A stretch of DNA of 60,945 bases from a virus: positions 1-60,945 of the IMG/VR virus record IMGVR_UViG_3300031784_000032. One strand, given 5' to 3'. Positions 3,888-60,428 of this stretch are shown piece by piece; the first letter of the stretch is position 1; each line of letters starts with the position of its first letter. Made by a program: the position numbers and the translations under genes. The notes under the pieces were generated by a model, which saw only the letters and a program-made list of their open reading frames with translations, was not told where the DNA came from and searched no databases.

Positions 3888-5486
<1,599 letters not shown>

Positions 5487-37945: not shown

Positions 37946-38229
37946 CCGACAATCTCTCCTAGAGTTTCGGTTGTTACAATTCTGTCTTTGTCAAGAGTAA
38001 GAGCATTAAAACGCTCTAGGCTCTCGTCAGTCAATGCTTGATTGAAAAAGTTATCAATTGTTTCAGCGGCAACCGCTGGGTTTTCGCTCGCAGAGTCTTT
38101 AACTAGGGATAACATAACTCGACCCTGTAGACTTGGAACGCAGAAGAACTCTTCTTCGTAAAGTTTAAACGAGATAGCTTCAGTATTTTCTGGAGATTTT
38201 CCAGCACCAAAATCTTTAAATTTTGCCAT
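37891..38229 (-). CDS. Tail assembly chaperone 1
   Basis: A 112-residue protein from ATG 38229, preceded by an A/G-rich ribosome region (AGAAGATATAAAA). The fold is helical, with a short beta N-terminus (AISFKLYEEEFFC) typical of actinophage chaperones that coat the tape measure. It ends 17 codons into the overlap with chaperone 2. A GGTAAAATA promoter-like element lies about 65 bases upstream, so tail genes may have their own transcript. Confidence 0.75.
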   Translation of the reverse strand: MAKFKDFGAGKSPENTEAISFKLYEEEFFCVPSLQGRVMLSLVKDSASENPAVAAETIDNFFNQALTDESLERFNALTLDKDRIVTTETLGEIVGWLLEEYSGRPEAQPEVS

Positions 38230-42811: not shown

Positions 42812-44806
42812 TTAGACCTCGATTGCAGCTGCGGTTGCGCCACCAGTGGTGTCGCGTAGAGCAGCAGCCACACCGTTAACGTTAACGGTCTGGGTGACAA
42901 CAAGTGCCTCGATACCAACCTTTGCAACACCTTCGAAGGTCTCAACGAACATCTTGTAGTCGTTGGTTCCAACAAGGGAGCTGTCGCGGATGATACCTAG
43001 GTCTAGTGAACCACCGTCAAGGAACAAGAATGTTCCCTCAGCGAATAGGTACCACTTGAAGCTGTCTGGGAACTCTAGAAGTGCAGCAGTACCCTGAGAA
43101 CCGTAAACGGTCATGTCAGGTGATGCAACTAGGTTCACGTTTAGCTGTGCTAGGTAGCCCTCGATCTCGCCACGGCCAACAGACAGAGTACCGTCTCCTG
43201 GCATAGCTAGAGCTAGGTCAGCTGCCATTGCGTCGTAGATCCAGTCAGGAACAATTGCGGTCAGAGTAGTGCTCTGAGCAATGCGGTGACGGGAACGGTA
43301 AGCAACAGCTGCCTTGCGGACTGACACTAGGAAGTCGCGACCAAAACCGATTAGGGTTCCAGAAGTAACAGCGGTAGAGCCGGCCTCAATCTTGCTAATT
43401 ACGTACTGCTCAGCCTCACGTGCGTGCTGTACTAGAGCTAGCTCGTTGTGGCGAGCAATCAACTCTGGGTAAGCGCGAGTCATAAGGTTACCGAACTGTA
43501 GCTGTAGGGTTACAGCGTCAGTGGTAGCAGTAAGCTCTGCAGCAGCTGAAACAGTTAGGCTTGCCTTTACAGCAGCCTCTGGGTCAGCGTCTACAGCAGC
43601 AGTCCAAACGCCAACAGCGTCAGCATATGAACCAGCAGCAAAGCTTGGTGGGGTTACGTAACGGATACCACCGCGGTCTGCCTGGAAACGTGGCAATGAG
43701 TCACGTACTGGGCGGTTAGTGGTAGAACCGATTGCGTAGATGTCGTACTTGACCTCTAGAGGCGCTGCGTGTCCACCAGAAGCAACAAGTGCCTGGCTTG
43801 AAACAGCGTTGATCTTGATCGAGTTAGACTCTGCATCGGTTGAGAGGACGCGCTCCTCTGGGAACGAGGTGGTTACAGATGCAACAATGTGCTGCTCTCC
43901 GTCTCCTCCGTTGACACGACGAAGCGAGTGGATGCGCTTCTCCATAGCCTGGGCTACCTCGTACATGTCGTTGATTGTGCTGCCAGCGGTGTAGCCAGGA
44001 ATATCTGCGCCAGCGGTGATTGCCACTGGAGCTTCGGTTACCTGAACAACAGGCTGACGGTCAGCTGGGGCCTCGAAAGGCTGTTCGGCTGCGGCGGTCA
44101 CTGGGGCCTGCTCTTCCTGCTCTTCTACAAGAGCGATTGATGATTCGATATTTTCTTCAGTTGAAGCTTCAGAACCTTCAGCAACTTCAGTTGCTAGTTC
44201 TGCAGTTTCTACTGCGGTTTCTTCGGTTGTTGATAGTTCAGAACCGTCTTCCTGATTGGTTGATGCTTCAGCAACAACTTCTTCTGAAGTTGCAATTTCT
44301 GCAACTTCTTCTGAAGAAGCTTCTGCTTCGACTGGGCTTTCGGTAACAAGCTCGGGAGCGTCCTCAGAAATTTCAGCTGAAGCCTTCATGGCCTCATCCT
44401 CATCTTCTTTGTCTTCTTCTTTTGCCTCTACCTCGACTTCGGCCTCTGGTTCAGAAGCTGGTGCTTCCTCCATAGGGGCGTCCTCCATAGGAGTTTCGTC
44501 CTCCATAGGCTCGTCTTCGGTCATAGCCATTTCCTCTCCTGCGTCGTCAGCCTGGCCCTTAACACGAGCAACGGCTTCAGCGGCCTTTGCTGCAAGCTCT
44601 GCAGCCAATGACTCACGGCGAGAAAGCTCGCCACGAATCATGTCAAGAGAATCGGCTAGCGACGTCATAGCATCAACTGTCTCAGGAGTAGGATCTTCAC
44701 CCTCAACCAGTTCAAACTGCGAAACAACATCTGACTGAAGCTCTGCGACTTGTTCGTCGCTAAGCTCAGCGATGGTGTCCAGCTGAGTTTTAATTTGGTC
44801 GTACAC
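42812..44806 (-). CDS. Major capsid protein with N-terminal acidic scaffold-like region
   Basis: The GTG start at 44806 has a near-perfect AGGAGGT ribosome site. The 664-residue product has two parts. Residues 1-255 are helical and highly acidic (runs of E, A, S, T), resembling a built-in scaffold (delta domain). Residues about 270-664 are an HK97-fold major capsid protein: INDMYEVAQAMEKRIHSLRRV, LPRFQADRGGIRYVTPP, EYRSRHRIAQSTTLTAIVPDWI-type region, FPDSFKWYLFAEGTFLFLDGGSLDLG and YKMFVETFEGVAKVG. A long 5' leader with stem-loops and a GGTAAAATT element precedes it. The scaffold part is probably removed by the protease encoded in the gene upstream. Confidence 0.85.
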   Translation of the reverse strand: MYDQIKTQLDTIAELSDEQVAELQSDVVSQFELVEGEDPTPETVDAMTSLADSLDMIRGELSRRESLAAELAAKAAEAVARVKGQADDAGEEMAMTEDEPMEDETPMEDAPMEEAPASEPEAEVEVEAKEEDKEDEDEAMKASAEISEDAPELVTESPVEAEASSEEVAEIATSEEVVAEASTNQEDGSELSTTEETAVETAELATEVAEGSEASTEENIESSIALVEEQEEQAPVTAAAEQPFEAPADRQPVVQVTEAPVAITAGADIPGYTAGSTINDMYEVAQAMEKRIHSLRRVNGGDGEQHIVASVTTSFPEERVLSTDAESNSIKINAVSSQALVASGGHAAPLEVKYDIYAIGSTTNRPVRDSLPRFQADRGGIRYVTPPSFAAGSYADAVGVWTAAVDADPEAAVKASLTVSAAAELTATTDAVTLQLQFGNLMTRAYPELIARHNELALVQHAREAEQYVISKIEAGSTAVTSGTLIGFGRDFLVSVRKAAVAYRSRHRIAQSTTLTAIVPDWIYDAMAADLALAMPGDGTLSVGRGEIEGYLAQLNVNLVASPDMTVYGSQGTAALLEFPDSFKWYLFAEGTFLFLDGGSLDLGIIRDSSLVGTNDYKMFVETFEGVAKVGIEALVVTQTVNVNGVAAALRDTTGGATAAAIEV

Positions 44807-44909: not shown

Positions 44910-44937
44910 CTAATTTTACCTTACTTTTTAGGTAAGG
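44910..44937 (-). promoter_or_regulatory. Hairpin and GGTAAAAT element ahead of the major capsid gene
   Basis: On the minus strand CCTTAC (44937-44932) and GTAAGG (44924-44919) form a 6-bp stem containing the stop codon of the 1,519-residue gene, followed by TAAAATTAG. GTAAGGTAAAATTAG (44924-44910) matches the promoter-like element. It is either a weak terminator, a promoter for the capsid gene, or both. Confidence 0.35.
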
Positions 44938-47900
44938 AGTCGGAGTAGCTTGCTCATCTCAGACTGAATTTCACCCTGGGAGTAGACATCTGCTCCAGAC
45001 ATATAGGACTGCAGGCCTTTAGTGGCGACGGCCGCGTCTTCTTTACCGATTTTGGCCTCGACCCGAGTAATCATCTTTTCGATGAGATCCTTGAGTCCAG
45101 ACGGTAAATCGCTAAATCTTAATTTTGATGATTCCTTGCCAAAAGGCAGGGGCAGGTTGGCAATAGTCTTGCCTAGCTCTGCGGCAGTTAGTCGAACGTT
45201 CTCCAAGGCCTCTGGGTTTAGCGCCTTAGTGTCCAATCTGTCAATCATGTCCAAAAGCTCTGAGCTGGCAGCAGCCGACTTGGTGTAGTTACCGGAAAAC
45301 TCTAGGTTTTCGGCTTCTTGAACCTTAAGTAGTGCCTTCTGTAGACCGGCTACTCCTAGGTTCTGCTTTAATCTAGCCAAGACCTTGCGGTACTTACCTT
45401 TAGCATCGCGAGGCTGAGTCTTTGGCGTAAATTTTGTGCGGCCATCCTCATCAAACTTATCTTCTGCAGTAGTCTTTCCAGTGCGGACGTCTTCTGCCTG
45501 CTGAATTTCTTCTTCGGTCTGCTTGTCAGCTTCTGTTTTAGCGTCCTTAAGCTTTTCTAGGTCAGCGTCAGTGATCTCGTCGACTTCAGCAAACTCAGTA
45601 AGCTTTGCGTTGACAGCTGCAATAACTGAGCGCATCTTTTCTGCGGAGCTCTGCACATCTACAATGGCAGCAGCCTTCCAGTTTTCTGGAACTAGGTCAG
45701 TTTTACCTAAAGCTTCTGCGCGCTTGCGAATGTGAGCTCTAACCGCTTTGCGATCTTCTGGATTTGATCTTCCGTAAGCCTGTATTGCATTCTTTAGATC
45801 TTCTACGTTGCGAATCGGGTATGAGCCATCTGGAAGTGCTTTGCCAGATACTGCAAGATGTTTACGCTGCAATTCGCTAATCTTTGAAAGCTCGGCTGCA
45901 GCAGCAGCAATAAGTGCCCGCTCACGCATGGTCTCAACCTTTTTAGCCGCAGCGGTTATTGCATAAGTCTTGGCTTCTTTTTTGGCTTTCTTAACTCTAG
46001 ACTTTAAGTCTGGAGTTGAAGCAGCTAGCTGAGATAGACGCTCTGCTCTAGTTACAAAGTGCTCTACGTGCTCGCTCTTCATAATTGCAAAGAAGCTAGC
46101 GCCAGCAGCAACCAAAGCCATAACCTTGCCAGATGCAACAAGTGCACGAGCAATAGGGAATCCTGGGACGTTAACTTGGCAAACTGCAACTAGCTCAAGT
46201 GAGCCGTTGATTGGTCTCCAGTCGCCTGAAGGAGCAGAAGCGCGTAGTGCACGAATCTGCATTTCGGTTGCGCCTGGGCGTAGTGAACCGCATACGTAGA
46301 TTCCGTACTCGTCTTCTCCGGCGCAAACGTCAGCAATTGCTGAAGCGGTGTCGTCGTAGTGCTTAGCAGCCTGAGATGCGCTAGCAGTTAAATCTGCGTG
46401 GCCGCCTGCAAGAGTTAGCTGTCCGACTGGAATATCCTTACCAGCGTCTGTGCGAACAACACCAGTGTGGAAGTAGGAGTACTTGCTCTTAGAGCGAGGT
46501 GGACGAGTCGAGCGAGGCATACCAATGTGGTTTACGTGCCATGCTGCAATGTGACCATAAATGCGACCGCTTGGGTCTACAGTTAGAGGGGTTGGCTTAG
46601 TTAGATTAGGGTTTTCGAACCAGTCCTGTGGTGGAACTACAGGAATCTCTGAATCTAAAAATCCTGAGGCAACTAGCGGCACGACGGTAGAGTCAATTGT
46701 CTCCTCATAGAGACCGTCGGTTAGGGGCATGTTTTCTTCCTCCTGGTAGCCTGATTCGTCAATAGAAATAGTGCATTCCTGGAATGCAGGCTTTGCTACA
46801 ATTGTAGCAGCCATTACGCGTGCCCTATTGACCGTGAGTTTGTCTTTGCCGATCTCTCCCTCGTCTTCTAGTTCCGCAGAACCTTCAGGCTTAGGCTTCT
46901 TATCTTCTTTAGCCTCAAACTGATCTAGGTCGGCGGAGACTCCACGTAGGAATCCATTCCTAACTAGACGTTCAGCTTCTTTTCCGTAAGCTCCAGTGTC
47001 AAAAACTCCATAGGCGTTGCCTAATCCGTTCTCGGTTCTCTCTATGTAGTCAATCCGACCAACAACTACAGATCCGGCGTGACCTTCTCCAGTCTTAATT
47101 TGCCATAGCAAAGGTAGCGGAAGTTCTCTAAGTGTTATTGAGTCCTTCTTGAACTTTCTTCCATCGCCAGACTCTAGCTCCTCTGGTATCAAAAGAGGGA
47201 TAGTAAACCTAGCGCCAGAGTCCATCATTGGAGTTGCTCCTGCAGTTACAGCAAATCTTTCTTTAGCGTGCGCGGCCCTAGCTACAAGCTCAGAGTGGGC
47301 TATAACTTTCTGGTTAAAATCTTCTAAGGACGAAAACATCTGGGATTCCATAGAGTTTTCTCTTCCGGGGTTTAGCCTACTGCCTGTATATACTCCCGTG
47401 GCATCCTTATGTCTGAGCTGGCAGTAACCCTTAGCTCTAGGTCCCATGTACTTAGAAAGCTGACGAACACATCTAGTCCAGTCCCCCGGGGTTCCCCAAC
47501 GGATCTTGGCTGCACCCTTACCTGAAGTCCAGTAACGGCGAAGCTCTTCCGCGTTTCCTCGGTTACGGTCTAAACCGCCAGCTGCAACAAAAGCATCAAA
47601 GATAGCATTAATATTTTTTAATGTAGAAAACTCTTCTATGCCCTTTGTTGGGGCTTTTTCGGTTTCAGACATTTGAGTAAGCACATCATTTAGAGACTCT
47701 TTGTCTAGCTCAATAACAGGCGGCTTTGTTGAAGAGCGGAGGTCAGCCATGGTCTGATCGTCGCGGACCCACTTGTCACCATCTCTAGTGTAGGCAATAG
47801 GCTCGGTAGAGGTAGCACTGGCTGGAACCAGTGCAACTAGATCTACTACGTCCTGAGGATTTTCCTCTGTAACTATTGCTAGGTATTTAGGTGGAACATC

Positions 47901-49487
47901 TGAGGTAGCTGGAGTTAGCGTCTTTTCTGTTTCCGCTGCGGCAACAATAGAGTTTTCTCCTGCAAACTTTTCAAGTCCCCAGGTCTTTTTTACTCGTTCT
48001 TTGTCTGCTGCGTCTGCTGGCTTGTAGGAACTGCGCATGTCAGATACGTACTTAGGCCAGTTGTAAAGCATGTTGTCAATGTCTCTACTGGACATCGGAG
48101 GTAGCGTTCCAGGAAGGTGAGCATTAGGCATGTTAATTGGAGTTCTAGATTCTCCAATAATTCCAGAAAGGTCTAATGGGGCTACGGTCTTAGGTACGGC
48201 TCTAGGGCCAACAAAGCCTTTTTCGCCTTCGGTGTACTTAGCGTCTACTTCAATTTCTTTTCCGCTGTCAAGTCGAACGGAAACCATTCCGGTCTTGCTG
48301 TCTACTTTTGTAATAACACCTGACCCGCGCTGGGCGTCGCCACCAACAATAACCCTAGAACCTGCAGCAGCAAATTGACCGCGTGCATCTCTAGGTTGGT
48401 TTTCTGCTTTTTCAGATAAGAAATCAGAGTCTAGTACTCCGTCACCATCTTTATCTGCCTGGGATGTCGTTGGGTCAGCTGTACCGGCTGCAACAATTAC
48501 TTGGTCTATAAAGTCCCAGTCTTCATCCTGAAGCCCTGACATAGTAAGAGCTGCTTCATCCTGGTCAAGCTCATACATAGTTACTTTGCAACCAGGATCT
48601 ACAGCCATGCGTGCTGCTATTTGCAGAGCCGACTGAGGGTCGATAATTACGTGAGTTTTTTCCTGAGTATCGTAAACATCATCTAGCATACGATCGTATG
48701 TCCACACATCACCATCGACATGTCCCATGTTGTCCCAGTTAGAGTCGTCCCACACGTAAATCGATCCGTCGATGTCAACCATGTATAGGCGATCCATTCC
48801 GGAACCGTCTAAGCAGACTCTGACTAAAAATTCAGGTCCGTAGTGCATGTCAAGATCGTTAGCGTATTTAAATGGATTTATATCTTCCGAGCTTGTTTCG
48901 AAGTTTGTCTGCCCTGGGTAGTAGCCCCCTGAAGTTACAGGCTTTTTGTTTTCACGCTCTACAATTGTGCGTGCCCAGCGCCATGCTGCATCTCCACCCC
49001 AGAGTGCCCACGCGATGCGTCCGTTAGATGGATAGTTTTCTTGGCCAGGCTTCCAGCCCTTGCCTTTTTTGTCTACCTCATGACGAGGGAAGTATTTTGC
49101 AATGTGGCGAATCTTACGAATGCCAATCTGACCGCCTTTTGCAAGAGTGCGAGCAGTGTTAAGACCTACAGGAGTTCCCCCACGGTTCTCTTCTTTGCGC
49201 CACTCTAAAGCTTTCTTAGCTTCAGCCTGTACAGTTTTCGGAATTGTGTACATTCTGTCGGCGGCAGCAACAATAGCTTTTTCTTCAAGAGCGCTCAAGG
49301 CTTTTTCAGCTAATAGAATTTCAGCTTTAGCCCCCGGATCAGTCGGAAGATCCCAGCTCTCAAGGAAGTAAACGTCAGAAGCAGCACCACTAGCAACAAC
49401 TGCTCCGATGGAGGAGTCAATAATCACTCCATGCTCGTTATTAGCATAGAGAGACAAGCTGCCAGAGCGGCCAATTAGGTTATTCAT
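44928..49487 (-). CDS. Capsid maturation protease polyprotein (multidomain)
   Basis: A 1,519-residue protein from ATG 49487 (AGGA 7 bases upstream). Residues about 105-180 form a KGGQIGIRKIRHIAKYFPRH...SNGRIAWALWGG domain. Near 375-440 is QPRDARGQFA followed by a barrel-like segment (GVITKVDSKTGMVSVRLDSG). About 770-910 is a prohead protease: GEGHAGSVVVGRIDYIE with the catalytic His near 802, and NGFLRGVSADLDQFEA with the Ser near 850. About 1215-1270 (YPIRNVEDLKNAIQAYGRSNPEDRKAVRAHIRKRAEALG) is a module common in actinophage capsid-region proteins. QPRDAKGKYR appears near 1375, then a helical end. Most phage proteases are 200-300 residues, so this is a large fused form that may process itself. 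Confidence 0.75.
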   Translation of the reverse strand: MNNLIGRSGSLSLYANNEHGVIIDSSIGAVVASGAASDVYFLESWDLPTDPGAKAEILLAEKALSALEEKAIVAAADRMYTIPKTVQAEAKKALEWRKEENRGGTPVGLNTARTLAKGGQIGIRKIRHIAKYFPRHEVDKKGKGWKPGQENYPSNGRIAWALWGGDAAWRWARTIVERENKKPVTSGGYYPGQTNFETSSEDINPFKYANDLDMHYGPEFLVRVCLDGSGMDRLYMVDIDGSIYVWDDSNWDNMGHVDGDVWTYDRMLDDVYDTQEKTHVIIDPQSALQIAARMAVDPGCKVTMYELDQDEAALTMSGLQDEDWDFIDQVIVAAGTADPTTSQADKDGDGVLDSDFLSEKAENQPRDARGQFAAAGSRVIVGGDAQRGSGVITKVDSKTGMVSVRLDSGKEIEVDAKYTEGEKGFVGPRAVPKTVAPLDLSGIIGESRTPINMPNAHLPGTLPPMSSRDIDNMLYNWPKYVSDMRSSYKPADAADKERVKKTWGLEKFAGENSIVAAAETEKTLTPATSDVPPKYLAIVTEENPQDVVDLVALVPASATSTEPIAYTRDGDKWVRDDQTMADLRSSTKPPVIELDKESLNDVLTQMSETEKAPTKGIEEFSTLKNINAIFDAFVAAGGLDRNRGNAEELRRYWTSGKGAAKIRWGTPGDWTRCVRQLSKYMGPRAKGYCQLRHKDATGVYTGSRLNPGRENSMESQMFSSLEDFNQKVIAHSELVARAAHAKERFAVTAGATPMMDSGARFTIPLLIPEELESGDGRKFKKDSITLRELPLPLLWQIKTGEGHAGSVVVGRIDYIERTENGLGNAYGVFDTGAYGKEAERLVRNGFLRGVSADLDQFEAKEDKKPKPEGSAELEDEGEIGKDKLTVNRARVMAATIVAKPAFQECTISIDESGYQEEENMPLTDGLYEETIDSTVVPLVASGFLDSEIPVVPPQDWFENPNLTKPTPLTVDPSGRIYGHIAAWHVNHIGMPRSTRPPRSKSKYSYFHTGVVRTDAGKDIPVGQLTLAGGHADLTASASQAAKHYDDTASAIADVCAGEDEYGIYVCGSLRPGATEMQIRALRASAPSGDWRPINGSLELVAVCQVNVPGFPIARALVASGKVMALVAAGASFFAIMKSEHVEHFVTRAERLSQLAASTPDLKSRVKKAKKEAKTYAITAAAKKVETMRERALIAAAAAELSKISELQRKHLAVSGKALPDGSYPIRNVEDLKNAIQAYGRSNPEDRKAVRAHIRKRAEALGKTDLVPENWKAAAIVDVQSSAEKMRSVIAAVNAKLTEFAEVDEITDADLEKLKDAKTEADKQTEEEIQQAEDVRTGKTTAEDKFDEDGRTKFTPKTQPRDAKGKYRKVLARLKQNLGVAGLQKALLKVQEAENLEFSGNYTKSAAASSELLDMIDRLDTKALNPEALENVRLTAAELGKTIANLPLPFGKESSKLRFSDLPSGLKDLIEKMITRVEAKIGKEDAAVATKGLQSYMSGADVYSQGEIQSEMSKLLRLLT

Positions 49488-49545: not shown

Positions 49546-49713
49546 TTATTCAGCGGGCTTTATGTCTTTTATGACAACGCCATTTTCGTCAACGAACTCG
49601 CTGTCGTCTTCGTACTCTGGCACAGGGTTCCCTATGATCTTTGCTAAAAGTGCCCAGTATTCTGGATCATTTTCAGTGTAACCACCTAGGATGTCTGGTT
49701 TCTTTTCACTCAT
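49546..49713 (-). CDS. Small acidic protein
   Basis: A 55-residue ORF read by eye from ATG 49713 to TAA 49546. The start overlaps the TGA of the ArdC gene, which implies translational coupling. It begins MSEKKPDILGGYTENDPEYW and ends VIKDIKPAE, with strong acidic content (DENDPE, EYEDDSEF). It is too short for domain recognition. A small protein between ArdC and the protease could be a virion component or a regulator. Confidence 0.6.
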   Translation of the reverse strand: MSEKKPDILGGYTENDPEYWALLAKIIGNPVPEYEDDSEFVDENGVVIKDIKPAE

Positions 49714-52018
49714 CTGAGTCTCCATCTTTTTTAGTAACTGTAGATTTGTAGCCTTCTATTGGACTCCAGTCTCCTAGATCCATGCCTAGTATGTAGTCTA
49801 CTACCTTCTGGGCTTCTGAGGAGGATAGGGTAACCATGTTAGGGTCATCCTTTAGGGCTGCAAGCCAGCTCTTTACGTAAGCTGCAGTGTTATCAAAGTC
49901 GCTATTGACTCCAAACATGCTCGCCAAAATAGCAGCTGCTATCTCAGCTATGAGCTCCTCTTGGCCGCGAGCGGCGCTATCAGATCCATACTTGCTGGTA
50001 AGTTCTGTCCTATCTAGGCGATCCTTGTGTCCCGTGCTGTGGGCTAGCTCGTGGGCAATAGTGTCAAACATGTCTTCTGGACTGTTGAACTGCTCCTTGG
50101 TTGGAAGTGTAATTCTATCTAGAGAAGGACTCCAGTTTGGAGAAGAAGCGTGGTTCCCGTACTCTCCAATGTAGGTGTACTCAACTTCTGGTGTCTTTAG
50201 ACCTTTAGCTTCCATAGACTTTTTGTAGCGCTCTAAAATAAATTCTTGAGCCTCTAGAGGAGTCTTTGGTTCTCCTGCCTCTTCTTTAGCAGTAGGAAGA
50301 GTAATGCCATCAATCTGAGAGACGTTAAAGACTGTTCCGGTTCCAAATCTTATAAAGCTACCGGTAACTACTTCTTGTCCAGTTGCAGAATCTTTCTCTT
50401 TGCGAACCTGCTTGAAAGGTATAAGAATTGGAACACCCTTCTCGCCTTTTCTAACGTTTCCACCGAGATCCTGAGCTTGCTTGTATGTCATCCAACGAGG
50501 GTCGTCATATCCAGAAAGCTGCTGGTTTAGTCTTAGAACCATCGCGTTTATGCCATTGTAGATATGCTTTGATGCTGGGTTTCTAGGTAAGTCTGCTCCT
50601 GCAAAGTTTGATCCTTCTTTAAACGGTTTACGCCAAGGAGTCTTACCTTCTTTAATTTTTTCTAACAGGCTAGACAGAACTTTTTCTTTGGCGTCTTTGC
50701 TGTTTGATATTGACTTACCCTGGTCGACTGACTCCTCTCCTACTGCCTGATCAAAGCCAGCTAACTGGGCATCAACAAAGTCAGGAGTTGGGTCTGGGTT
50801 TAAGCTTGAAGCTTTTGGAGTAGTGACATCTAATCTTTCAGACTGTATGGTTGGGAAGACCTTAGTCTTTAGTGGGTCCCACTGAGGCAAAACATCATTC
50901 CCCAGTAAGTACTCAACCGCAACCTGTGCTCTAGACACTGCAGCGGTTACAGCGTTGTTGCGATCTTGCTCTTTAACATTTTTTAAGTGGTTAAGTAAGT
51001 ATGCTGTAGAGTTTTTAGAATCAGAACCTATTCCAAACATTCGACTTAAAATCATGGCACCTAGCTCTGCAGTAAGCTCTTCCTCCGCCCTACTTGAGTC
51101 ATCACCTTCAAAAGCTTTATCTAGTTCTTTTCTATCAAGTCGGTTAAGTTTACCCGTAGAGTGGATAAGTTCGTGAGCTAGAGTGTTAAACCACTCTTCG
51201 TCATCCTCAAAATTTGCTCTAAGCGGTAGTCGTATTTTTTCAGGCTGAAAAGAACCGTAGTTTGGCATCCATCGAGGATTTTGATCTTCATCAAGCTGAA
51301 TCCCAAATACATTTGGTTGTCCGGTGTCTCTGATCTCAGAGGCTTCGCGTAGGCGGTCTAAAAGAATATTCGCAGCTTCTTCTGGAGTATATGATTTGTT
51401 GTCATCTTGGTTATATGACGGGATTCCATCGACCTGGTCGCCATTAAAAACAGTAACCTTCATAAACTCATACAGCTCTACAACTTTGCCTTTGACATCA
51501 GTAACCAAAACCTGAGGGACTAGGATTTGTGTACCTTTGGTACCGCTAGGAACTGACCCACCCATATTTAGTATTTGCTGAGCGGTCATCCAACGAGGGT
51601 CGCTAAATCCGTTCTTAGCCGCTGCCTCTTCTAAAGCAAACACGTTGGGACCTTTGTAGTAGGCTCCAGTACCAGGGTTTACTGGTATAGGCCTAGTAGC
51701 GTTGCGGTCCCATTTTCTTCGCCAAAATGCGAATTTTTTAACATTATCAAAAGCGTCATATAGTTCAGAAAGAACTGAAATTGAAGCAGCTAGGTTGGTT
51801 TTAGTGACCTGTGTAGTTTTTTCTTGTAGCTGCTCGTCATCTAGCTTGAGTGGGTTAGCTTTAGATCCTGGCTCGCCCACTGCTACCGCAGGACGTACAG
51901 AGTTGCTTGGCGCTGGCTCAGGGCGATACTTAGCTAGAACCTTGTTAATTCTGTCAATAGCCGCGGCATCTTGATCTAGACCAACACCACTGTCAGCCCC
52001 CTCGCTGGGGGCTACGCT
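49706..52018 (-). CDS. ardC-like: Tandem ArdC antirestriction/metallopeptidase protein, predicted -1 frameshift product
   Basis: The -1 frame is open from the slippery site at 52024-52018 through to TGA 49706. The only start-like codon is GTG 51880, which has no ribosome site and would give 724 residues. Two full ArdC units follow each other: an N-terminal ssDNA-binding domain (YYKGPNVFAL...DPRWMTAQQILNMGGSVPSGTKG; second copy IYNGINAMVL...DPRWMTYKQAQDLGGNVRKGEKG) and a zinc peptidase domain (HELIHSTG with EELTAELGA near 51150; HELAHSTG with EELIAEIAA near 50040). A GFDQAVG linker lies between them and GLDQDA lies upstream of GTG. ArdC of plasmid pSa protects incoming DNA from restriction; here it would be part of a virion polyprotein. 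The protein is followed by a coupled small gene. Confidence 0.75.
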   Translation of the reverse strand, partial: SVAPSEGADSGVGLDQDAAAIDRINKVLAKYRPEPAPSNSVRPAVAVGEPGSKANPLKLDDEQLQEKTTQVTKTNLAASISVLSELYDAFDNVKKFAFWRRKWDRNATRPIPVNPGTGAYYKGPNVFALEEAAAKNGFSDPRWMTAQQILNMGGSVPSGTKGTQILVPQVLVTDVKGKVVELYEFMKVTVFNGDQVDGIPSYNQDDNKSYTPEEAANILLDRLREASEIRDTGQPNVFGIQLDEDQNPRWMPNYGSFQPEKIRLPLRANFEDDEEWFNTLAHELIHSTGKLNRLDRKELDKAFEGDDSSRAEEELTAELGAMILSRMFGIGSDSKNSTAYLLNHLKNVKEQDRNNAVTAAVSRAQVAVEYLLGNDVLPQWDPLKTKVFPTIQSERLDVTTPKASSLNPDPTPDFVDAQLAGFDQAVGEESVDQGKSISNSKDAKEKVLSSLLEKIKEGKTPWRKPFKEGSNFAGADLPRNPASKHIYNGINAMVLRLNQQLSGYDDPRWMTYKQAQDLGGNVRKGEKGVPILIPFKQVRKEKDSATGQEVVTGSFIRFGTGTVFNVSQIDGITLPTAKEEAGEPKTPLEAQEFILERYKKSMEAKGLKTPEVEYTYIGEYGNHASSPNWSPSLDRITLPTKEQFNSPEDMFDTIAHELAHSTGHKDRLDRTELTSKYGSDSAARGQEELIAEIAAAILASMFGVNSDFDNTAAYVKSWLAALKDDPNMVTLSSSEAQKVVDYILGMDLGDWSPIEGYKSTVTKKDGDSDE

Positions 52019-52024
52019 TTTGGG
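51995..52024 (-). promoter_or_regulatory. Programmed -1 frameshift signal: slippery heptamer plus hairpin
   Basis: On the minus strand the last codons are GCC CCA AAA GCG TAG. The heptamer C CCA AAA (52024-52018) allows tRNA-Pro and tRNA-Lys to slip back to CCC and AAA. After 4 bases AGCCCCC and GGGGGCT pair with a 5-base loop (52013-51995), a 7-bp GC-rich stem. The stop codon overlaps the stem's 5' arm. All three standard parts are present at the usual spacing. Confidence 0.8.
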
Positions 52025-55000
52025 GCAGAGTCTCCAAGAAGGTTTTCTAGTCGATCTACGTATTCTAGGATTCCCCTAGCTACGTCTTCTCCGTCGCCTC
52101 TACGGGTTCCTCGGAACCACTCAGCTATGTCGTTCAGCTTAGAGATTAGCGCCTGAGGGTTGTCAGCATAAGTCGAGAAGATTTGTCCACTCAAAAACTC
52201 ATCTAATTCTGATGGCAAAAGCTCGTTATTATTAGACTCTAAGTTTTCTGCTGCCCAGCGAGCCGCGTCTTCTTGGTTGTCAAAACTTCTTTGCTCGTTT
52301 TGGCTGTCGTTTTCGGGAGAGGTTAAGGTTGCAACCCAAGTTTCCTCTTCTTCATCTTCGTCTAGAGCAACTCGTGCTTCCCAGCCGCCGCCTCTGTTGT
52401 CTCCAACATTGCTGTTTCCTGGCTCATTTAGCTGGTCAAAAGCGATACCTTCTGAGGGGTAGTAGAACTCAACAAGATCGTTAGCTCTTCTAGAAGTGCG
52501 ATCAAACTCTAATTCGCTTCCGATATCATCGCTGTCGCGCTTAGCGGACTCAACTGGGCCAAGCCTAGACTGGATGCTGCTGAGTAGTTTTTCAGCAAAC
52601 TGCTCTAGCTTCTGTCTTAAGCTGCCCTCTCCAACATTGCCGATAGCATCGTCTAACTCGACATACATGCTAGCCGCATCTCCGATGTCTTCAGGGTCAA
52701 AATCCTTAAGAGAGTCTGTTGGCAAGAAGGTGCTACCAATTTCACCAGCGTCTTCAGCCGCTTTTATCTCGTCTAGTAGGTTCGAAGCTTCGTCCCTGTC
52801 ATAGAGAGGTCCTGAAGCCGGAGCTGAAGGAGCAGCCTGATCTAGTCCAGGAGTGTTTCCGGCCTCGACATCAGCTATAGCTTTGTCTAATACAGAGAAG
52901 GAGTCTTCATTTCTAACGTCAGCTCTTAGTCTCTTAAGTGCCTCAAGATCTCCATCTTCAACTAAAGACTTGATGTAGTTGTCGAGACCTCCAGGAACGT
53001 TTGGCATCTCCTTGAGCTGGCTTATGATGCTTGAGACATCAGCCTTAGACAAGCTGTCAAGATCTTTTAAAATCTCGTTTCTGTCTTCTTCGGAAAGTCC
53101 CTTAGCGTAGACGTCGCGATTAACCGAGTCAATCATCTTTTGAGAAGGCTTGCCGTACTGACCAAGATTTTCTTTGTCATCTAGAACACGGAGCTTGCCA
53201 ATAAGAGCACCGGCCTGAGCCTTGCTTAGGTTCTTGTTAGTAGCTGCTTCAGCAACAGCGGCGGCAGTGTCAGCGTCTACATTCATCTTGGATTCAACAA
53301 GACTCTGTAGGTAGTTGTACTGAGCGTCAGAAGCTGGCTCTAGCTGCTTTTCGGTGAGAGGCTTGGTTGGAGCGTCTTGGTCTAATCCCTCATCCTCTTC
53401 GTTTTCTTCGTCAAATAGTGAAGCTCTATCTCTTTCCTCATCGCGGAAACTCTGCGAGTTCCATGCTTCTAGAACATCGTTGTACGCTTCGTTGAACTCT
53501 CCGGTCTCCCAAAGATAATCGTAGTAGCGTCTACGGGCAGCCCACTGGAACTGCTCCAAGCCCTGCTCTAGCTCATCCCGCTGGGACTCTGCCTCTTCCG
53601 GAGTTATCTCTCCGTCTTCTTCTTTTGCATTTATTTCGTCAAATAGGCGCTCGTGATCGCTACGGGCGCGCTCAATAGCGTCTTCAATTTCTTGCTTAAT
53701 GTCATCATCAGCACCTACTGCTGAGTCAGGCATAGTGGGGTCAATCTTGGAGTTAACATCTTGGTCAAGGCCAGCTGCGTCAGCGTTATCTGGCTTACGA
53801 CGTAGCTTGTTTGTCAAGGCCTCGATGCCAGGGCGGTCTAGTCCTGCCTCAAGCTGACTGAGGATGTCGTCTAGCTCTTCTGGAGAAATCTGCTTTGTAG
53901 TCAGGTAGCCCTGTAGAGAGTTCAACATTCTGTCGGTTGGCTTAGTGGAGTCTACTCCTGGCTTGAACGGCTTCTTCTGAAGATCGCCAAATAGGGCAGA
54001 AATCTGAGACTTAGAAAGGTTGCGGTTGTCTAGAGCATCTTTGATGGCGTCAGAAGTTAGAGAATCAATCTCGTCGCGCTCGTCAAAAAGTTCCTGCAGT
54101 AGGTCATACTGCTTAGAGGTAGCTGGCTCGAGCTGCTTTGGAGATAGCCCGCCATTTTCTTTCTTAAACGCAGCTAATTTAGAGTCGTCTACTTTTTTCT
54201 GTAGCCAAGCAGCAGCTTTATCTTCTGCTTTAAACTTTCTGGTGGAGACTTCTCCCTCAGCGTCTGTGAAGGAGCCTTCCCAGGTGCCGGAGCCGTCGGA
54301 CTTTATAGATCCAGTAGATCCATCTGGTCCTTTGTAGGAAGCATTTCCGCCTTCTGTGGCCTCGATCTCTCCTGATCCAGGAGCCTGCTCAAAGTACTTT
54401 GAGTTGAGCTCATCGTAAACATCACGGACTTCGTCGTGAGCATCCTTGTACTTAGGGTTCTGCAGGAAGCTAGCCATCTCATCTAGGTCTTGACGTTCTA
54501 ATACACCTTCCGCAACCTGAGAGTTGTCAAACCCTTTACCAAATCCGTTAGCTACCCACTCGAAGGCTTCCTCGGGGCTGTTGAAGTCTTGCTCAAGTTC
54601 AAGGGTATCCTGGCCACTGCCATCCCTATCTCCATAGAAGATAGTTGCTACCCATTTACCTGGAGCATATTCAGACAGGTTAACTACTGCCGAACCAAAG
54701 TCGTAGAAGTCACCGTCTGCTTCAAACTCGTTCGAGTTTACTGAACGCTCATACTGCTTGGTGTTCGAATTGTAAACTATTTCTACACGAGGAGTGATGT
54801 TGTATCCGTCAGCAAGCTGCTTTACGGTATCTGTCGTAGATCCGCCTGCTTGGTCAAAGCCGTAGTCGTAGTCTCTGTCTGCCCAGTCATCGTTTAGGAA
54901 TTTGGAGAATTTGTCGTCATCGTTAAGAATCTGAGCAAACTCTTCAGCGAAAGCTCTTGCGTCATCTAAGGAGTCAAACTTTTTTTGCTCAAAGAAAGAG

Positions 55001-57453
55001 TGCTCAACGTTCTCATCAATAAGGTCGCGAGCTTCTTTAGTTACTTCCCACTGGAGTTTCTTAGTGTTTGGGTCGTACTTTTTAGAGATAGAAACTGTGC
55101 CAAGACCGCTCTCTCGCTCGAAGCCGTAATTTCCAAAATCATCAAATTTTATTAAATCGTTAGGATTAAAATTAGCTTCAGCTAAAGTACGGCTAAGGGC
55201 GTCTGCAACTTCTCCTGGAGACGTGAGGTCGCGCTCGGTTGCCTTAAAGCTGCCAACAGATTGACCATCGTACTCAACAGTAATTCCGGAGGCGTCTACA
55301 AGTCCACCCTCACCGTCCGAGTCGCCGTCTGGTTCAAAAGTTAGTTTTAGTTTTCCGTCTGGTGAGGTGTACTCTCTGGAGCCTCCGCCTAGGTCTTTCC
55401 AGCTATCCTGATTGTCTATGGCATCAAAGTCAATAGCGTCTTCAAACCAGTTAGGGTTTTTGGCATCCTGGTCTAGGCCATCTGCTTGGCCATCAAACCA
55501 GTCGTTATACATAAAGTCGTAGAAGTCAGAAGACTTACCTAAATCAATCCACTTTTGTGCTTCAGCTATGGCTTCTTGCTCGGAGTCAAACATCTTAGTG
55601 TCTTCATACTGGTAGACACCGCGTGGGTGCTGTTCAATATCCTCAAACCCGCTCTTGACGAGCTGCCACTTGTCTCCAACTTTAGAGATGTCAGCACCAG
55701 CAGTGTCAGAGTAGTACTCTAAATCTCCGCTGTCAGTTCTCTCTAGGTCTGGACCGATGTCAACAGCGGAGTCTTCTGGCTCATTTAAGCTTCGAGGAGC
55801 ATCTTGGTCGAGGCCCGGTGCAGCTTCTTCTGCGTACTTTTTTGCTGCCCATGAAATTGCAGCGCCGACTTCTTGGTACCAATTGTCTAATTCCCAGTCC
55901 TCAGGGTCGCCCTCTTGCGTTTTAGCTAGTGGCCTATCATTACGAGCTTCGACAACTGCTGGGTCACTAAAAATCTTTTCTATAAGGTCCTTAGTAGTTT
56001 TGTCGTACTCAGCATTCCAGTTCAGATTCTTATCGTCAGGTCCATACGCGTCTATTGATGGCTGCTCTGAGTCAAGCCAAGAGCCATCTCTCCGCTCCAT
56101 GCGCTCAAATTCTCTTCTTGCTTCAGCAGAGTCAAGGTTGGATACTAAATCTTCTATTGCAGCTGCTCTAGGGTCTTCCGGTTTTCCAATGGCTGTAGGA
56201 TCCTCTTGATCAGAGGCAGGAGCGTCTTGGTCGAGACCTGGCTCTTCTGGTTCTGGCTTGCTGTCTTCTTCAAAAGCATCGTAGGTAAGTGCAATTTTGT
56301 TTGCGCCGGCCCAGTCCTGAGCAACACCGATTATTTCGCCGTCTCTGTCAGTTAACTCAAAGAACGGTTCGTTAGGATCTTCGGCACCACTTTCGCCAGC
56401 ACCTTCAAACATGTAGTCACCTTCAGGGCGAGTGTCTACCTGACGTAGTGTCTGACCTGTCTTAGATGTAAAAGATCCATCTTCGTTCTTAGTCCAACCC
56501 TCTGGTGCATCTTTTTTAGTTTTTATAAACTCGTCTAGAGGAATAGCAGCGTCTCGCTCTGCCTGAGTCGGCACTGCAATACTGCGCTTTCCTTTAACGC
56601 CTTTCAGTGCGCGCTTAGATAGAACAGCTTTAACGGAATCTGTCTTAGCTGCATCGATGGTGTAGATACCATCTGGAATCTCGTCGGATCCGCTGAACTC
56701 TACCTCAAAGTTGTTGGTCCCACGCTCAGCGCCAACAATTCTTCCGTTTTCAGAGAAAATGCTTCCGTCTCCACGGCTAAAGAATCCCTTTAGACGTCCA
56801 AACTCTTCAGCGAATCTACCATCGCGGTGGCGACGACGTACAGCAGCAAGTGCCTTAGACATTGCGGAGCGCATTGCAAAGCTCATTCTGAACGCTGCAG
56901 TGATCGGAAGACTAATGTCTTCTGGAACATAACCTGCTGCAACTAGTGCTGAAAGTTTATACGCTGCGTAGTCTGCTTCAACTGATCCTGGCTGGCTTGC
57001 GTATGCTTTGTATGTGTCGTATCTAGCTTCGTCAGAAGCAATGCGAGGGTCTGCAGCAGTCCAAAGCGCGGTGGCCTGGTTTAGTGCAGAGGCGGTCATA
57101 GCCCCGCGGTTAGTTCTTGACGGGTGACCTACTGGTAAAAAGTCTGTAAAGTCTGAAAGACCAGAAGCTAGTACACCGCGCTGTGAGTAGTTAATTACGT
57201 TGTCTACGGCATTTGCTGCGAAGAGCATCCACTCGCTTGGGTCTGCAGTTATGTGCTTATTAATTGTTAGGTCAATAATTTTTTGTACTGAATTATTGGA
57301 AAGTTGACGAGCCGAAGCTACTAGAGCATTCTGAGTCGAAGCGTATTCGGAGATAGCGATGCGAGACAGGTGCTCGGCGTCTTGAACGGTGTAATCCGCG
57401 TCAGAGTAGTAGTTCTCGATCTTAGCGAGTAGGGAATCGAACGCTTGGCTCAC
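52012..57453 (-). CDS. Giant low-complexity virion-operon protein with tandem repeats
   Basis: A 1,813-residue acidic protein starting at GTG 57453 (AAAGG upstream). Residues about 1-230 are helical, ending RRRHRDGRFAEEFG. Then come repeated units separated by G(L/F)DQ(D/A) motifs (56222, 55799, 55462, 54844, 53755, 53372, 52833 in plus coordinates). One repeat type is a W-x-V/A-x-L/I strand pair followed by F-x-(S/N)-x-x-(E/D)-A-x-x-(W/F)-A. The other is a helical LEPA(T/S)xxQYxxLQxL...NxNLSKxQxxALxxxL unit, present twice and echoed by further P-x-x-(R/K)-M-(L/I)-(N/D)-S-(L/V) units, resembling DUF3072. It ends in a -1 frameshift signal. The next gene in frame -1 encodes two ArdC domains. 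Function is unknown; it may be an internal virion protein. Confidence 0.7.
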   Translation of the reverse strand: MSQAFDSLLAKIENYYSDADYTVQDAEHLSRIAISEYASTQNALVASARQLSNNSVQKIIDLTINKHITADPSEWMLFAANAVDNVINYSQRGVLASGLSDFTDFLPVGHPSRTNRGAMTASALNQATALWTAADPRIASDEARYDTYKAYASQPGSVEADYAAYKLSALVAAGYVPEDISLPITAAFRMSFAMRSAMSKALAAVRRRHRDGRFAEEFGRLKGFFSRGDGSIFSENGRIVGAERGTNNFEVEFSGSDEIPDGIYTIDAAKTDSVKAVLSKRALKGVKGKRSIAVPTQAERDAAIPLDEFIKTKKDAPEGWTKNEDGSFTSKTGQTLRQVDTRPEGDYMFEGAGESGAEDPNEPFFELTDRDGEIIGVAQDWAGANKIALTYDAFEEDSKPEPEEPGLDQDAPASDQEDPTAIGKPEDPRAAAIEDLVSNLDSAEARREFERMERRDGSWLDSEQPSIDAYGPDDKNLNWNAEYDKTTKDLIEKIFSDPAVVEARNDRPLAKTQEGDPEDWELDNWYQEVGAAISWAAKKYAEEAAPGLDQDAPRSLNEPEDSAVDIGPDLERTDSGDLEYYSDTAGADISKVGDKWQLVKSGFEDIEQHPRGVYQYEDTKMFDSEQEAIAEAQKWIDLGKSSDFYDFMYNDWFDGQADGLDQDAKNPNWFEDAIDFDAIDNQDSWKDLGGGSREYTSPDGKLKLTFEPDGDSDGEGGLVDASGITVEYDGQSVGSFKATERDLTSPGEVADALSRTLAEANFNPNDLIKFDDFGNYGFERESGLGTVSISKKYDPNTKKLQWEVTKEARDLIDENVEHSFFEQKKFDSLDDARAFAEEFAQILNDDDKFSKFLNDDWADRDYDYGFDQAGGSTTDTVKQLADGYNITPRVEIVYNSNTKQYERSVNSNEFEADGDFYDFGSAVVNLSEYAPGKWVATIFYGDRDGSGQDTLELEQDFNSPEEAFEWVANGFGKGFDNSQVAEGVLERQDLDEMASFLQNPKYKDAHDEVRDVYDELNSKYFEQAPGSGEIEATEGGNASYKGPDGSTGSIKSDGSGTWEGSFTDAEGEVSTRKFKAEDKAAAWLQKKVDDSKLAAFKKENGGLSPKQLEPATSKQYDLLQELFDERDEIDSLTSDAIKDALDNRNLSKSQISALFGDLQKKPFKPGVDSTKPTDRMLNSLQGYLTTKQISPEELDDILSQLEAGLDRPGIEALTNKLRRKPDNADAAGLDQDVNSKIDPTMPDSAVGADDDIKQEIEDAIERARSDHERLFDEINAKEEDGEITPEEAESQRDELEQGLEQFQWAARRRYYDYLWETGEFNEAYNDVLEAWNSQSFRDEERDRASLFDEENEEDEGLDQDAPTKPLTEKQLEPASDAQYNYLQSLVESKMNVDADTAAAVAEAATNKNLSKAQAGALIGKLRVLDDKENLGQYGKPSQKMIDSVNRDVYAKGLSEEDRNEILKDLDSLSKADVSSIISQLKEMPNVPGGLDNYIKSLVEDGDLEALKRLRADVRNEDSFSVLDKAIADVEAGNTPGLDQAAPSAPASGPLYDRDEASNLLDEIKAAEDAGEIGSTFLPTDSLKDFDPEDIGDAASMYVELDDAIGNVGEGSLRQKLEQFAEKLLSSIQSRLGPVESAKRDSDDIGSELEFDRTSRRANDLVEFYYPSEGIAFDQLNEPGNSNVGDNRGGGWEARVALDEDEEEETWVATLTSPENDSQNEQRSFDNQEDAARWAAENLESNNNELLPSELDEFLSGQIFSTYADNPQALISKLNDIAEWFRGTRRGDGEDVARGILEYVDRLENLLGDSAPKA

Positions 57454-57526: not shown

Positions 57527-58219
57527 TTATTTCTTTGTTGACTTTGGGTGACCCTTTGGTAGCAGGTCATTATCTGTTGTGTACTTTGAGTTTTTAGGAG
57601 ATCCGGTTTTTAGTAAGTGCAGGTATGCGTTCACTCTGGCCATAGCCCAAGAGTTGCGATTCTGGTCAGGCCTGTGAGATGTAGAGAAAGCTCCAGCACC
57701 CCTGCGGTATACAGCTTTTAGAGTTGGAAGAGTTGCTTTTCTGCCAGCTTCTGCCTTTTCGTTGTGGCTTTCTACCTTGTTCTTGAGGGACGTAATTATG
57801 GTTTCGTTGAAAGTTACGCTCTTGCCATCGTCGGCCGAACCTTTAGGGTTCTTTTTAGATCCTTTGATTTGATCTTTTTTCGGAGCAGGCTTTGAGCCAG
57901 CTGTAGCAGTGACTGCGCCATCTGGCAATACAGCAAGACGGCATAGGCCGTTCTCCTCCACTGCTTCAGCTAGGATCTGGCAGGCATTTCCGCCCATGAA
58001 GAAGACACAGTTGCCACACTTAACGCCAATCTGAGCGTTCTCCTCATTCTCTGAGGCAGGAGTGTACCCAACCCAAACACCGCTGTTGTCGTCGTTAAAC
58101 TTTCCGTACTTTTTGGCAACCTTTAGGATTGCGTCAGCAAACTCTTGCTCTTCTGGGACTAAAGAGTATCCCGAGATATTTGAGTTTCCACCAAAAGCAG
58201 ACTCTAAATACGAAGACAT
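57527..58219 (-). CDS. Virion-operon protein with Cys motif and conserved C-terminus
   Basis: A 230-residue ORF whose ATG overlaps the upstream TAA. IGVKCGNCVFFMGGNACQILAEAVEENGLCRL (C-x2-C-x8-C-x12-C) near residues 65-95 resembles a metal or cluster site like that of small ferredoxin/HiPIP-type folds. A basic linker (PAPKKDQIKGSKKNPKG) follows. The C-terminal 90 residues (LKAVYRRGAGAFSTSHRPDQNRNSWAMARVNAYLHLL...YTTDNDLLPKGHP) match a C-terminal block I recall from many phage capsid-region proteins of unknown function. It is next to the Dps-like gene, so iron chemistry is a possibility. Confidence 0.6.
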   Translation of the reverse strand: MSSYLESAFGGNSNISGYSLVPEEQEFADAILKVAKKYGKFNDDNSGVWVGYTPASENEENAQIGVKCGNCVFFMGGNACQILAEAVEENGLCRLAVLPDGAVTATAGSKPAPKKDQIKGSKKNPKGSADDGKSVTFNETIITSLKNKVESHNEKAEAGRKATLPTLKAVYRRGAGAFSTSHRPDQNRNSWAMARVNAYLHLLKTGSPKNSKYTTDNDLLPKGHPKSTKK

Positions 58220-58676: not shown

Positions 58677-60428
58677 TTACTGCCCTTCTTGAGGAGCTAC
58701 TGGTTCTGCAAGACCCGGGGCTTCTGCTGCAGGCTCTTCGGTAGGTGCCTCTGCTCCAGGAGCCACTGGCTGTCCAGCTAGCAATTGCTCAATCTCTGGT
58801 GGCATAGGAGCTACAGAGCTGGCTTGACTTGCTGCGTTAATAAGATCTTTAAGTTCAGGCGCAACCGCTTCTAGCATGCTTTGAGTTAGCTCAGGGGTGA
58901 TCATACCCTTCTCAATTACAAGGCGTAGTGCAAGTTCTGCTGGGCTAGGTGCGTCTGCATCTGAGAATCCGTGCGCGCGTCTCCATGTGTTGTAGGAGAC
59001 TGCCATCTTGTCGAATCCGCTGTCTGCGTCGGTAGCTCTGTCATTTCTGGTTGCTACCTGACTTGGGTCATACCAAACCTGAATCTTGGCTACAGCTTCT
59101 TCGTCATAGCCGTTTGCAATTAGGTATGGACGCAAGTAAACAACAGTCAAAGCGTCAACAATAAGAAGCATTAGAGGTTCGATGTGAGCCTTGTAGAGTG
59201 CTTCGTCAATCTGTAGAGCGTTTGAATACTTAACATTTGCAAGACCTGTTACAACATCCTTAGGGACGTCTAGACCCTGCATGATTCTCTCAAGGACTCG
59301 GTCAGCACGCTGCACAAGGCTGGCGTCAAACGAACGCTCGAACTTAAACTGCTTGATCTTGTCGCCAAGTTCTGCAGGTCCACGAATGATAAGTGGGACA
59401 ACGGCGCTCGCGGAGTCTTCGTCCTTAATCGGAGTGGTCATCGCGTCGATTAGTTGATCTTCGAAGTCGTCAGCAGCTTCCTCGGCGTTATACTGCTCGT
59501 TGTATTCGCCATCTTCATCGTATGGGTAGTCTGGATCCGGAGAAGATGCTACTGACAGTCCGTCTGGCAAGTAGAGAGCACCAGCGTTCAAGCGTGAACG
59601 TGCAGTTGCACGGAAGGTGCGGTTAAGAAGTAGAAGTTCAGCGCAAAGATCGAGTAGACCGCGCAGCGATGAGTCTGACTCTAGTGAGTAACGAGGGTGA
59701 GACTTCCAAATGCGTCCAATAAACGCGTCCTTAGGAAGTTTTATCGCACTTTTTGAAGTTTGGTTGGAAGAAGATCCTGAAACATCGCGAATTGGGCTAA
59801 TGACATAGTTTCCTCTGGAGTCTAGCTGTAGTTCATCTACAGATCTCATGTCCCAGCTCTCTGGAAGACCAGTGCCAACACGTTCTGGAACCTGAACTAG
59901 GTAGCACTCTCCAGTAACCTGAAGATTTAGAGCAGCGTCTTTCAAAAGACCTGCCTGACCACCGTATGCTGAGTTAAGTCTTGCCAATGCGCGCTCAGCG
60001 GCTCTTGCTAGCTGAGGATCTATGTTCGCTGAGATATTTACAGGAACAGGAGCCTCGGCTGGGTTGTCTACAGATGCTGCGTAGATTCGAATACGGGATA
60101 CAACTGCAGCAACAAGATTAAAAGCGTACTTAATTTCGCCAATCGCGTCGTAGTACTCCCAAGCTTCTGTCTGCCAGGACGAAGAAGCGGACTGTCTACG
60201 AGCTTTAAACTGCTCTGCCTCTGTTTTGTCACCAATTTTTATCTGGGCTGCTGCTGCAGTTAAAGCTCTAGGGGTGTTGTAGGCCGCGGGCTCTGCATAA
60301 ACCAAACCGAAAGAATCTACAGAGATGCCTGGAGCAACAGGGGTCGCAGTGCGAGGCACCGAAGCCCTAAAGCGACTGTTAGTAGATTCTCTACGTGTGT
60401 TTTTGCTGTTCTTATTGAAAATTCCCAA
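58677..60428 (-). CDS. Portal protein
   Basis: A 583-residue protein starting at TTG 60428 with GGGAGA close upstream. The conserved portal features are AWEYYDAIGEIKYAFNLVAAVVSRIRIYAA, RFRATARSRLNAGALYLPDG, RVLERIMQGLDVPKDVVTGLANVKYSNALQIDEALYKAHIEPL and an RATDADSGFDKMAVSYNTWR region. These match actinophage portals of the HK97/SPP1 type. The C-terminus is Pro/Ala/Glu-rich. It is the first recognised virion gene at the right side; terminase should lie just beyond the window. Confidence 0.88.
   Translation of the reverse strand: MGIFNKNSKNTRRESTNSRFRASVPRTATPVAPGISVDSFGLVYAEPAAYNTPRALTAAAAQIKIGDKTEAEQFKARRQSASSSWQTEAWEYYDAIGEIKYAFNLVAAVVSRIRIYAASVDNPAEAPVPVNISANIDPQLARAAERALARLNSAYGGQAGLLKDAALNLQVTGECYLVQVPERVGTGLPESWDMRSVDELQLDSRGNYVISPIRDVSGSSSNQTSKSAIKLPKDAFIGRIWKSHPRYSLESDSSLRGLLDLCAELLLLNRTFRATARSRLNAGALYLPDGLSVASSPDPDYPYDEDGEYNEQYNAEEAADDFEDQLIDAMTTPIKDEDSASAVVPLIIRGPAELGDKIKQFKFERSFDASLVQRADRVLERIMQGLDVPKDVVTGLANVKYSNALQIDEALYKAHIEPLMLLIVDALTVVYLRPYLIANGYDEEAVAKIQVWYDPSQVATRNDRATDADSGFDKMAVSYNTWRRAHGFSDADAPSPAELALRLVIEKGMITPELTQSMLEAVAPELKDLINAASQASSVAPMPPEIEQLLAGQPVAPGAEAPTEEPAAEAPGLAEPVAPQEGQ

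Follow-up and report, generated by a model that had tools for sequence, protein, structure and literature searches.

The viral stretch analysed here, IMG/VR record IMGVR_UViG_3300031784_000032 (positions 1 to 60,945, 60,945 nucleotides (nt), hereafter the window), carries on its minus strand near position 52,020 a slippery sequence at the boundary between a giant protein of the head operon and a tandem ArdC antirestriction module. The best reading, with a probability of about 0.82, is that a programmed -1 ribosomal frameshift takes place here, so that a putative polyvalent virion protein is made in an armed and an unarmed form. An earlier note on this DNA had proposed that such a frameshift joins the giant portal-adjacent protein to tandem ArdC, and the proposal now finds support in the conservation of the site among related phages and in apparent selection on the -1 frame. 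The cassette, its conservation, the purifying selection and the collinear in-frame fusions of relatives are all established at the level of sequence.

The proposed frameshift site and its two predicted products

The minus strand near 52,020 reads GAC TCT GCC CCA AAA GCG TAG CCCCCAGCGAGGGGGCTGAC. It contains the slippery heptamer C CCA AAA (52018..52024), of which CCA and AAA are 0-frame codons, a spacer of 4 nt (GCGT) and a putative stimulatory hairpin, AGCCCCC-AGCGA-GGGGGCT (51995..52013), with a stem of 7 base pairs (AGCCCCC/GGGGGCT) and a 5-nt loop. The 0-frame stop TAG (52012..52014) is the second codon past the slip site and overlaps the 5' arm of the hairpin; it closes an open reading frame (ORF) of 1,813 residues (52012..57453), the short or unarmed product. 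The -1 frame is open throughout from the heptamer to 49706 (49706..52024) and encodes 770 residues past the slip, among which ArdC-N and MPTase-PolyVal domains occur in tandem. Its first 48 codons include no start, and the earliest start-like codon, a GTG at 51880, has no ribosome site. The predicted fusion has 1812 + 770 = 2582 residues and the predicted junction peptide ...DSAPK|SVAPSEGADSGVGLDQDAAAIDR. Direct reading thus bears out the heptamer, spacer, TAG, stem, both ORFs and the 2,582-residue fusion as the earlier note described them. When both strands of the window were scanned for a slippery heptamer near the terminus of an ORF (80 codons or longer) that leaves the -1 frame open for 60 codons or more, the only one returned was this site.

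In the proposed mechanism the cassette consists of the slippery C CCA AAA, the 4-nt spacer, the 0-frame stop and the GC-rich hairpin, and tRNA-Pro and tRNA-Lys would slip on it in tandem, as established knowledge of such sites suggests. Ribosomes that do not slip would release the 1,813-residue portal-adjacent protein, and those that slip would read 770 more codons to give the 2,582-residue form, with two ArdC-N/zincin units at its end. The polyvalent virion protein would be packaged with the DNA, its ArdC arm would enter the next cell and shield the incoming DNA from restriction, and the unarmed form may fill a structural or spacing role. Packaging and delivery are suggested by the position in the head operon together with a domain set typical of polyvalent proteins (PubMed Central article PMC5512222).

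Conservation of the cassette in related phages

Relatives were collected by searches that used either the ArdC part or the cassette. The junction is present in every close relative whose sequence reaches it, and 11 related phages retain the site or its reversed form. CCCAAAA GCNTAG CCCCC-N5-GGGGG is found in L098-L101, L103 and L104, CCCAAAA GCGTAA CCCCCGAAAAGGGGG in L108 and its near copies, and AAAAAAA with GCGTAA or GACTAA and then CCCCC-N5-GGGGG in L102, L105 and L106. The heptamer changes therefore stay within the slip class (CCCAAAA or AAAAAAA) while the stop codon varies, and the X XXY YYZ pattern is kept, as C CCA AAA in the 0-frame register in the window and relatives and as A AAA AAA in three. 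The assemblies differ by up to about 57% in protein sequence, yet agree in frame relation, heptamer class, stop and hairpin. The alignment of relatives that the earlier note had suggested as a check accordingly finds heptamer class, hairpin and frame relation conserved.

The hairpin was compared with a null set of loci fetched without reference to it, comprising 207 distinct CCCAAAA contexts. A strong stem (at least 5 GC pairs, 3-8 nt downstream) occurs at 16/16 on-target CCCAAAA sites versus about 5/191 (~3%) of the other contexts, and one of these roughly five off-target stems sits inside an on-target hairpin; other heptamers have a stem in about 0-2% of cases. At all on-target sites the conserved stem lies 3-6 nt away. 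Compensatory changes affect 3 of 7 stem pairs among 12 sequences of clade A (the direct-polarity phages and L107, see below); none of 500 shuffles was as good, and sliding the stem partner destroys the covariation signal.

In the 12 codons past the slip, fourfold-degenerate sites are 100% identical among the seven closest members (n=90 comparisons), versus 22-78% in other windows of the alignment. Over the first 46 codons of the -1 frame, ahead of any likely start, the ratio of nonsynonymous to synonymous substitution rates (dN/dS) is about 0.03-0.6 and mostly 0.1-0.3. By this measure the -1 frame is under purifying selection from its first codon, and both dN/dS and the in-frame homologues point to its translation directly past the site. 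L101 has an additional module of about 160 residues inserted just past the site. In the same phage (L101 3407-7858, L005 contig) the 0-frame ORF is interrupted by an in-frame TGA after 902 codons, which could be a contig error or a second recoding event.

Reversed polarity in fused homologues

Two independent contigs (L107/G010 and L109/G014) each carry one uninterrupted ORF of 4,801 residues, with 65-76% identity between its parts and the two sides of the L108 junction. Their sequence at the homologous position is CGC CCA AAA GGT AGA CCCGGC-GATAA-GCCGGG, with the heptamer in register, a hairpin of different stem sequence and a stop in the -1 frame (CCC AAA AGG TAG). Since the stop lies in the -1 frame, the long form is the default there and slipping truncates it, in the manner of E. 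coli dnaX. The reversed layout, CCCAAAA GNTGA followed by a GC stem, is also found in L144, L146, L157, L164, L168, L192 and DSL-LC01, a complete metagenome-assembled phage with a predicted Actinomycetia host (PMC10611076). In these giants the cassette stands inside an open ORF that continues for roughly 500-2,600 further codons, and a slipped ribosome meets a stop after one codon. The N-terminal-domain tree unites L107 with the direct-polarity phages in one clade (support 100/98, clade A) and places the other reverse-polarity phages in a second (99/96, clade B), in which the reversed layout stands at comparable structural|effector boundaries; L107 (reverse, listed in the tree as L130) is sister to L108 (direct, listed as L132). 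L128 has an in-frame ORF running from the N-terminal domain to ArdC without a cassette, which supports the collinear fusion. A scan for weaker hairpins in the remaining N-terminal relatives gave no convincing further sites except in L160/L202, which carry A AAA AAA GCTGA with a weak stem.

Because relatives retain the signal yet reverse its polarity, what selection seems to act on is the making of two products itself. A role reversal by a small change is possible where efficiency is near 50%, as exemplified by dnaX, and not for low-efficiency sites of the gag-pol type (PMC5009743). As the cassette persists in relatives while the product that depends on the shift is swapped, a reversal tolerable only at such efficiencies, we infer that armed and unarmed forms are probably made in substantial, dnaX-like and comparable amounts (PMC5009743). 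The suggestion in the earlier note that the fusion is a minor fraction is unsupported, since L107/L109 and the second clade have the long form as the default.

Breadth of the cassette

The cassette is, judging from its matches, not specific to ArdC, a breadth that the earlier note missed. A scan of public collections with the pattern CCCAAAAGNTGANNCCCC(N3-6)GGGG found it in 37 viral stretches (24 distinct site sequences) and, among genome contigs, in 6 stretches in 257 Gb (gigabases). In 37/37 viral matches CCA and AAA are codons of an open 0 frame, and the TGA closes the -1 frame; as the matches were selected for the stem, they inform on register and context and not on the stem. They include portal|MuF (L237), NUDIX|MuF (L244, Streptomyces), a Mu-type portal joined to an ADP-ribosyltransferase (ART; L216), a giant with AAA+ (L209) and giants with ART and NUDIX downstream (L200). 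The site thus repeatedly parts a head-module part from a predicted C-terminal effector part (ArdC, ART, NUDIX, AAA+ or MuF).

Candidates are also found in cultured phages. The Arthrobacter phages Sonali and Mufasa8 encode portal and MuF in one ORF, annotated as portal or portal-MuF, and the sole CCCAAAA of the region examined lies at the portal/MuF boundary in both, in register and with a CCCTCC/GGAGGG stem. These unannotated candidate sites (L247 3633 in Sonali, L248 3621 in Mufasa8) stand between the portal/NUDIX and MuF parts, and in each the -1 frame ends shortly after the hairpin, in a short tail that is similar between the two. No cassette was found in gp17 of the Microbacterium phage Magritte, and a DNA search of annotated phages with the bare cassette gave nothing useful.

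From these observations we lean, somewhat, towards a wider reading in which a transferable C CCA AAA-hairpin cassette acts as a general stoichiometry switch that arms virion proteins in actinobacterial phages. It would stand at the boundary between head module and injected effector (ArdC, ART, NUDIX, AAA+ or MuF) and give both forms in comparable amounts, and small spacer changes would flip which form needs the shift and leave the outcome unchanged. If so, translational recoding at the structural|effector boundary would be the means by which phages set how many copies of a virion protein bear an effector; the polarity reversal between sister genes would be a natural experiment on frameshift efficiency, and the candidates in cultured Sonali and Mufasa8 make the idea open to test. 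It also carries a warning that automated annotation splits such proteins, as in the window, or hides the second product, as in the single-ORF giants.

Two observations stand beside these results. In L203 (IMGVR_UViG_3300042291_000667) the cassette is flanked by 3943 and 2603 codons of one open frame, which at about 6,546 codons is among the longest phage ORFs met in this analysis. In one genome, of Nocardioides agariphilus (L241, NZ_JADKPO010000008.1), a cassette at 4483-4508 lies in register at the point where a bacterial phosphotransferase system gene of the EIICBA type passes from its EIIB to its EIIA domain, and it may yield an EIICB form without EIIA.

The two protein parts and the head operon

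The 0-frame protein consists of a conserved N-terminal domain of about 420 residues followed by repeats separated by GLDQDA-type linkers, and Pfam gave nothing above cut-offs in it. The AlphaFold model of the N-terminal domain has a pLDDT (predicted local distance difference test) of 79, with no PDB match at E <0.2 and one weak BFVD match; lacking a convincing structural match, the domain was assigned no structural function. The -1 part contains two ArdC-N + MPTase-PolyVal units (PF08401, E 2e-47; PF18818, E 8.5e-49) and matches the anti-restriction family phrog_7245 (E 4e-121). The first ArdC-like unit (51026..51691, minus strand) matches phrog_23459 and has the zincin motif HELIHSTG, and the second (49829..50698, minus strand) combines ArdcN (PF08401) with MPTase-PolyVal (PF18818, HELAHSTG). 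Both features of ArdC, the ArdC-N domain that binds single-stranded DNA and a zincin domain with HExxH, are therefore found.

All genes of the operon that were placed by strand are on the minus strand. The portal protein (phrog_776, 58677..60428) is upstream, followed by a ferritin/Dps-like gene (58219-58674) that lies inside the head operon between the portal and the giant protein, a DUF5824 protein (57527..58219) directly upstream of the giant ORF, the giant gene, a 1,519-residue protein with matches to head maturation protease and portal fusions (44928..49487), the major head protein (phrog_777, 42812..44806), which sets the giant protein inside the head operon, and the tape measure (34647-37490). 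The gene thus stands among virion genes, between the portal and the protease/major head protein, and it does likewise in relatives. As in polyvalent proteins, several conflict-related domains share one polypeptide (ArdcN and MPTase-PolyVal twice each; ART and NUDIX in relatives). The window phage is probably of actinobacterial type, an assignment of host that rests on its relatives.

A motif R-D-x-x-G-[RQK]-[FY] recurs in head-operon proteins (the giant protein, the protease fusion and the portal), as in the window at 44928-49487 and in L097, L102, L107, L108 and L216; it is possibly a head-targeting or protease-related signal.

Alternative explanations

The alternative that survives best, although it is unlikely, accepts the frameshift and holds that both forms act only within the infected cell, as assembly or scaffold factors or after cleavage by the zincin, so that ArdC is not delivered. 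The gpG/gpGT of lambda, the classic phage frameshift pair, are indeed absent from virions (PMC5009743), and the zincin domains could cleave the protein; on the other hand, the domain set (ArdC, ART, NUDIX, MPTase) and the place in the head operon are those of polyvalent proteins for which packaging is predicted or known (PMC5512222), and ArdC is useful mainly on entry.

It is very improbable that ArdC is a separate gene reached by re-initiation or an internal start. The GTG at 51880 is available, but the position of the start-like codons of the -1 frame varies from relative to relative (66 to 399 nt in), they have no evident ribosome sites, and among relatives of the same layout none shows a start or ribosome site for ArdC close to the junction, the arrangement that the earlier note had named as telling against its proposal. 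Purifying selection acts ahead of those codons, where the -1 frame also encodes the GLDQDA family linker, as the earlier note had reported for the window; moreover, a separate gene leaves both the heptamer and the reversed polarity unexplained. An equally slight chance is given to transcriptional slippage, which the A7 runs of L102, L105 and L106 would favour: CCCAAAA, the commoner form, has just four A, and a conserved hairpin at fixed spacing with a codon register fits slippage on the ribosome. Still less credible is the hairpin as an mRNA terminator or processing site with an accidental frame relation. It is a GC-rich perfect stem right after a stop codon, but no U-tract follows, the same cassette stands inside open ORFs in the reverse-polarity giants, and all 37 pattern matches have the single register that gives slippage. 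Finally, a one-base sequencing or assembly error in the CCCCAAAA run that splits one plain ORF can be dismissed: the run is short and homopolymeric, and in-frame fusions occur among relatives, but independent assemblies with differing heptamers and stop codons share the frame relation, heptamer class, stop and hairpin, and fourfold sites are frozen only at the cassette.

Several points weigh against a programmed frameshift that arms a virion protein. Both products are predictions from sequence; the N-terminal domain has no structural match, which leaves the place of the giant protein in the virion conjectural, and the argument from polarity reversal to the product ratio is indirect. L128 is fused without a cassette, and many relatives with the N-terminal domain also have none; a pair of products is therefore not needed in every such phage. 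At 4-5 nt the spacer is short, and stem covariation in clade B does not rise above shuffles. The folding z-score is -3.1 for the 24-nt hairpin by itself and just -0.9 for its 51-nt context, where the energy is not exceptional; being mixed, these scores were not used as evidence, and the case rests on conservation and not on energy.

Relation to known systems

Frameshifts also lengthen the head proteins of T7 (gene 10A/10B) and of phage A2; their extensions have, to our knowledge, no antirestriction or enzyme domains, unlike the 770-residue ArdC module of the window. Bacterial dnaX uses the heptamer A AAA AAG, whereas the present heptamer is C CCA AAA, the protein is unrelated and the reversal occurs between sister phage genes. 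Like dnaX tau/gamma, the cassette combines a slippery site with a downstream hairpin and gives two products that share an N-terminus (PMC5009743). The truncating layout of dnaX, in which, as for gamma, a slipped ribosome reaches a stop after one codon, is that of L107/L109 and clade B, and the window has its stop in the 0 frame; a reversed layout has been mentioned for a few dnaX genes (PMC5009743).

Lambda gpG/gpGT and other tail-chaperone frameshifts likewise involve a -1 shift in a phage morphogenesis gene and a C-terminal extension. Unlike them, the giant protein is encoded between portal and protease/capsid genes and is not homologous, and its site is not just upstream of the tape measure. 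An overlapping pair at 37508-38229 of the window, 5' of the tape measure gene, does resemble tail-assembly chaperones; the window scan found no canonical slippery heptamer in its overlap.

Polyvalent proteins and -1 frameshifting are each known, and it is their union that was not found in the papers searched; searches of open-licence PMC literature yielded no relevant paper that links ArdC to frameshifting or CCCAAAA to frameshifting in phages. The paper that described polyvalent proteins proposed that ArdC-N protects the incoming genome and makes no mention of frameshifting, recoding or isoforms (Iyer et al., 2017, PMC5512222). The window protein resembles that class as a large multidomain virion-operon protein with ArdC-N and MPTase whose relatives carry ART, NUDIX and MuF, and differs in that its effector part would be optional by frameshift. 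One sentence of the PRFect study raises, among putative positives, the possibility that frameshifting links MuF-like to VIP2 ART genes in actinophages (PMC10885494), without cassette, conservation, ArdC or polarity reversal.

Further candidates

The direct-polarity pattern matches L009, L016, L020 and L023 were discarded as non-coding or unconvincing. On the minus strand of L019 (IMGVR_UViG_3300014745_000003), GGGAAAA GCGTAACCCCCGCAAAGTCGGGGG links an ORF of 558+ codons and unknown family to an 80-codon -1 extension.

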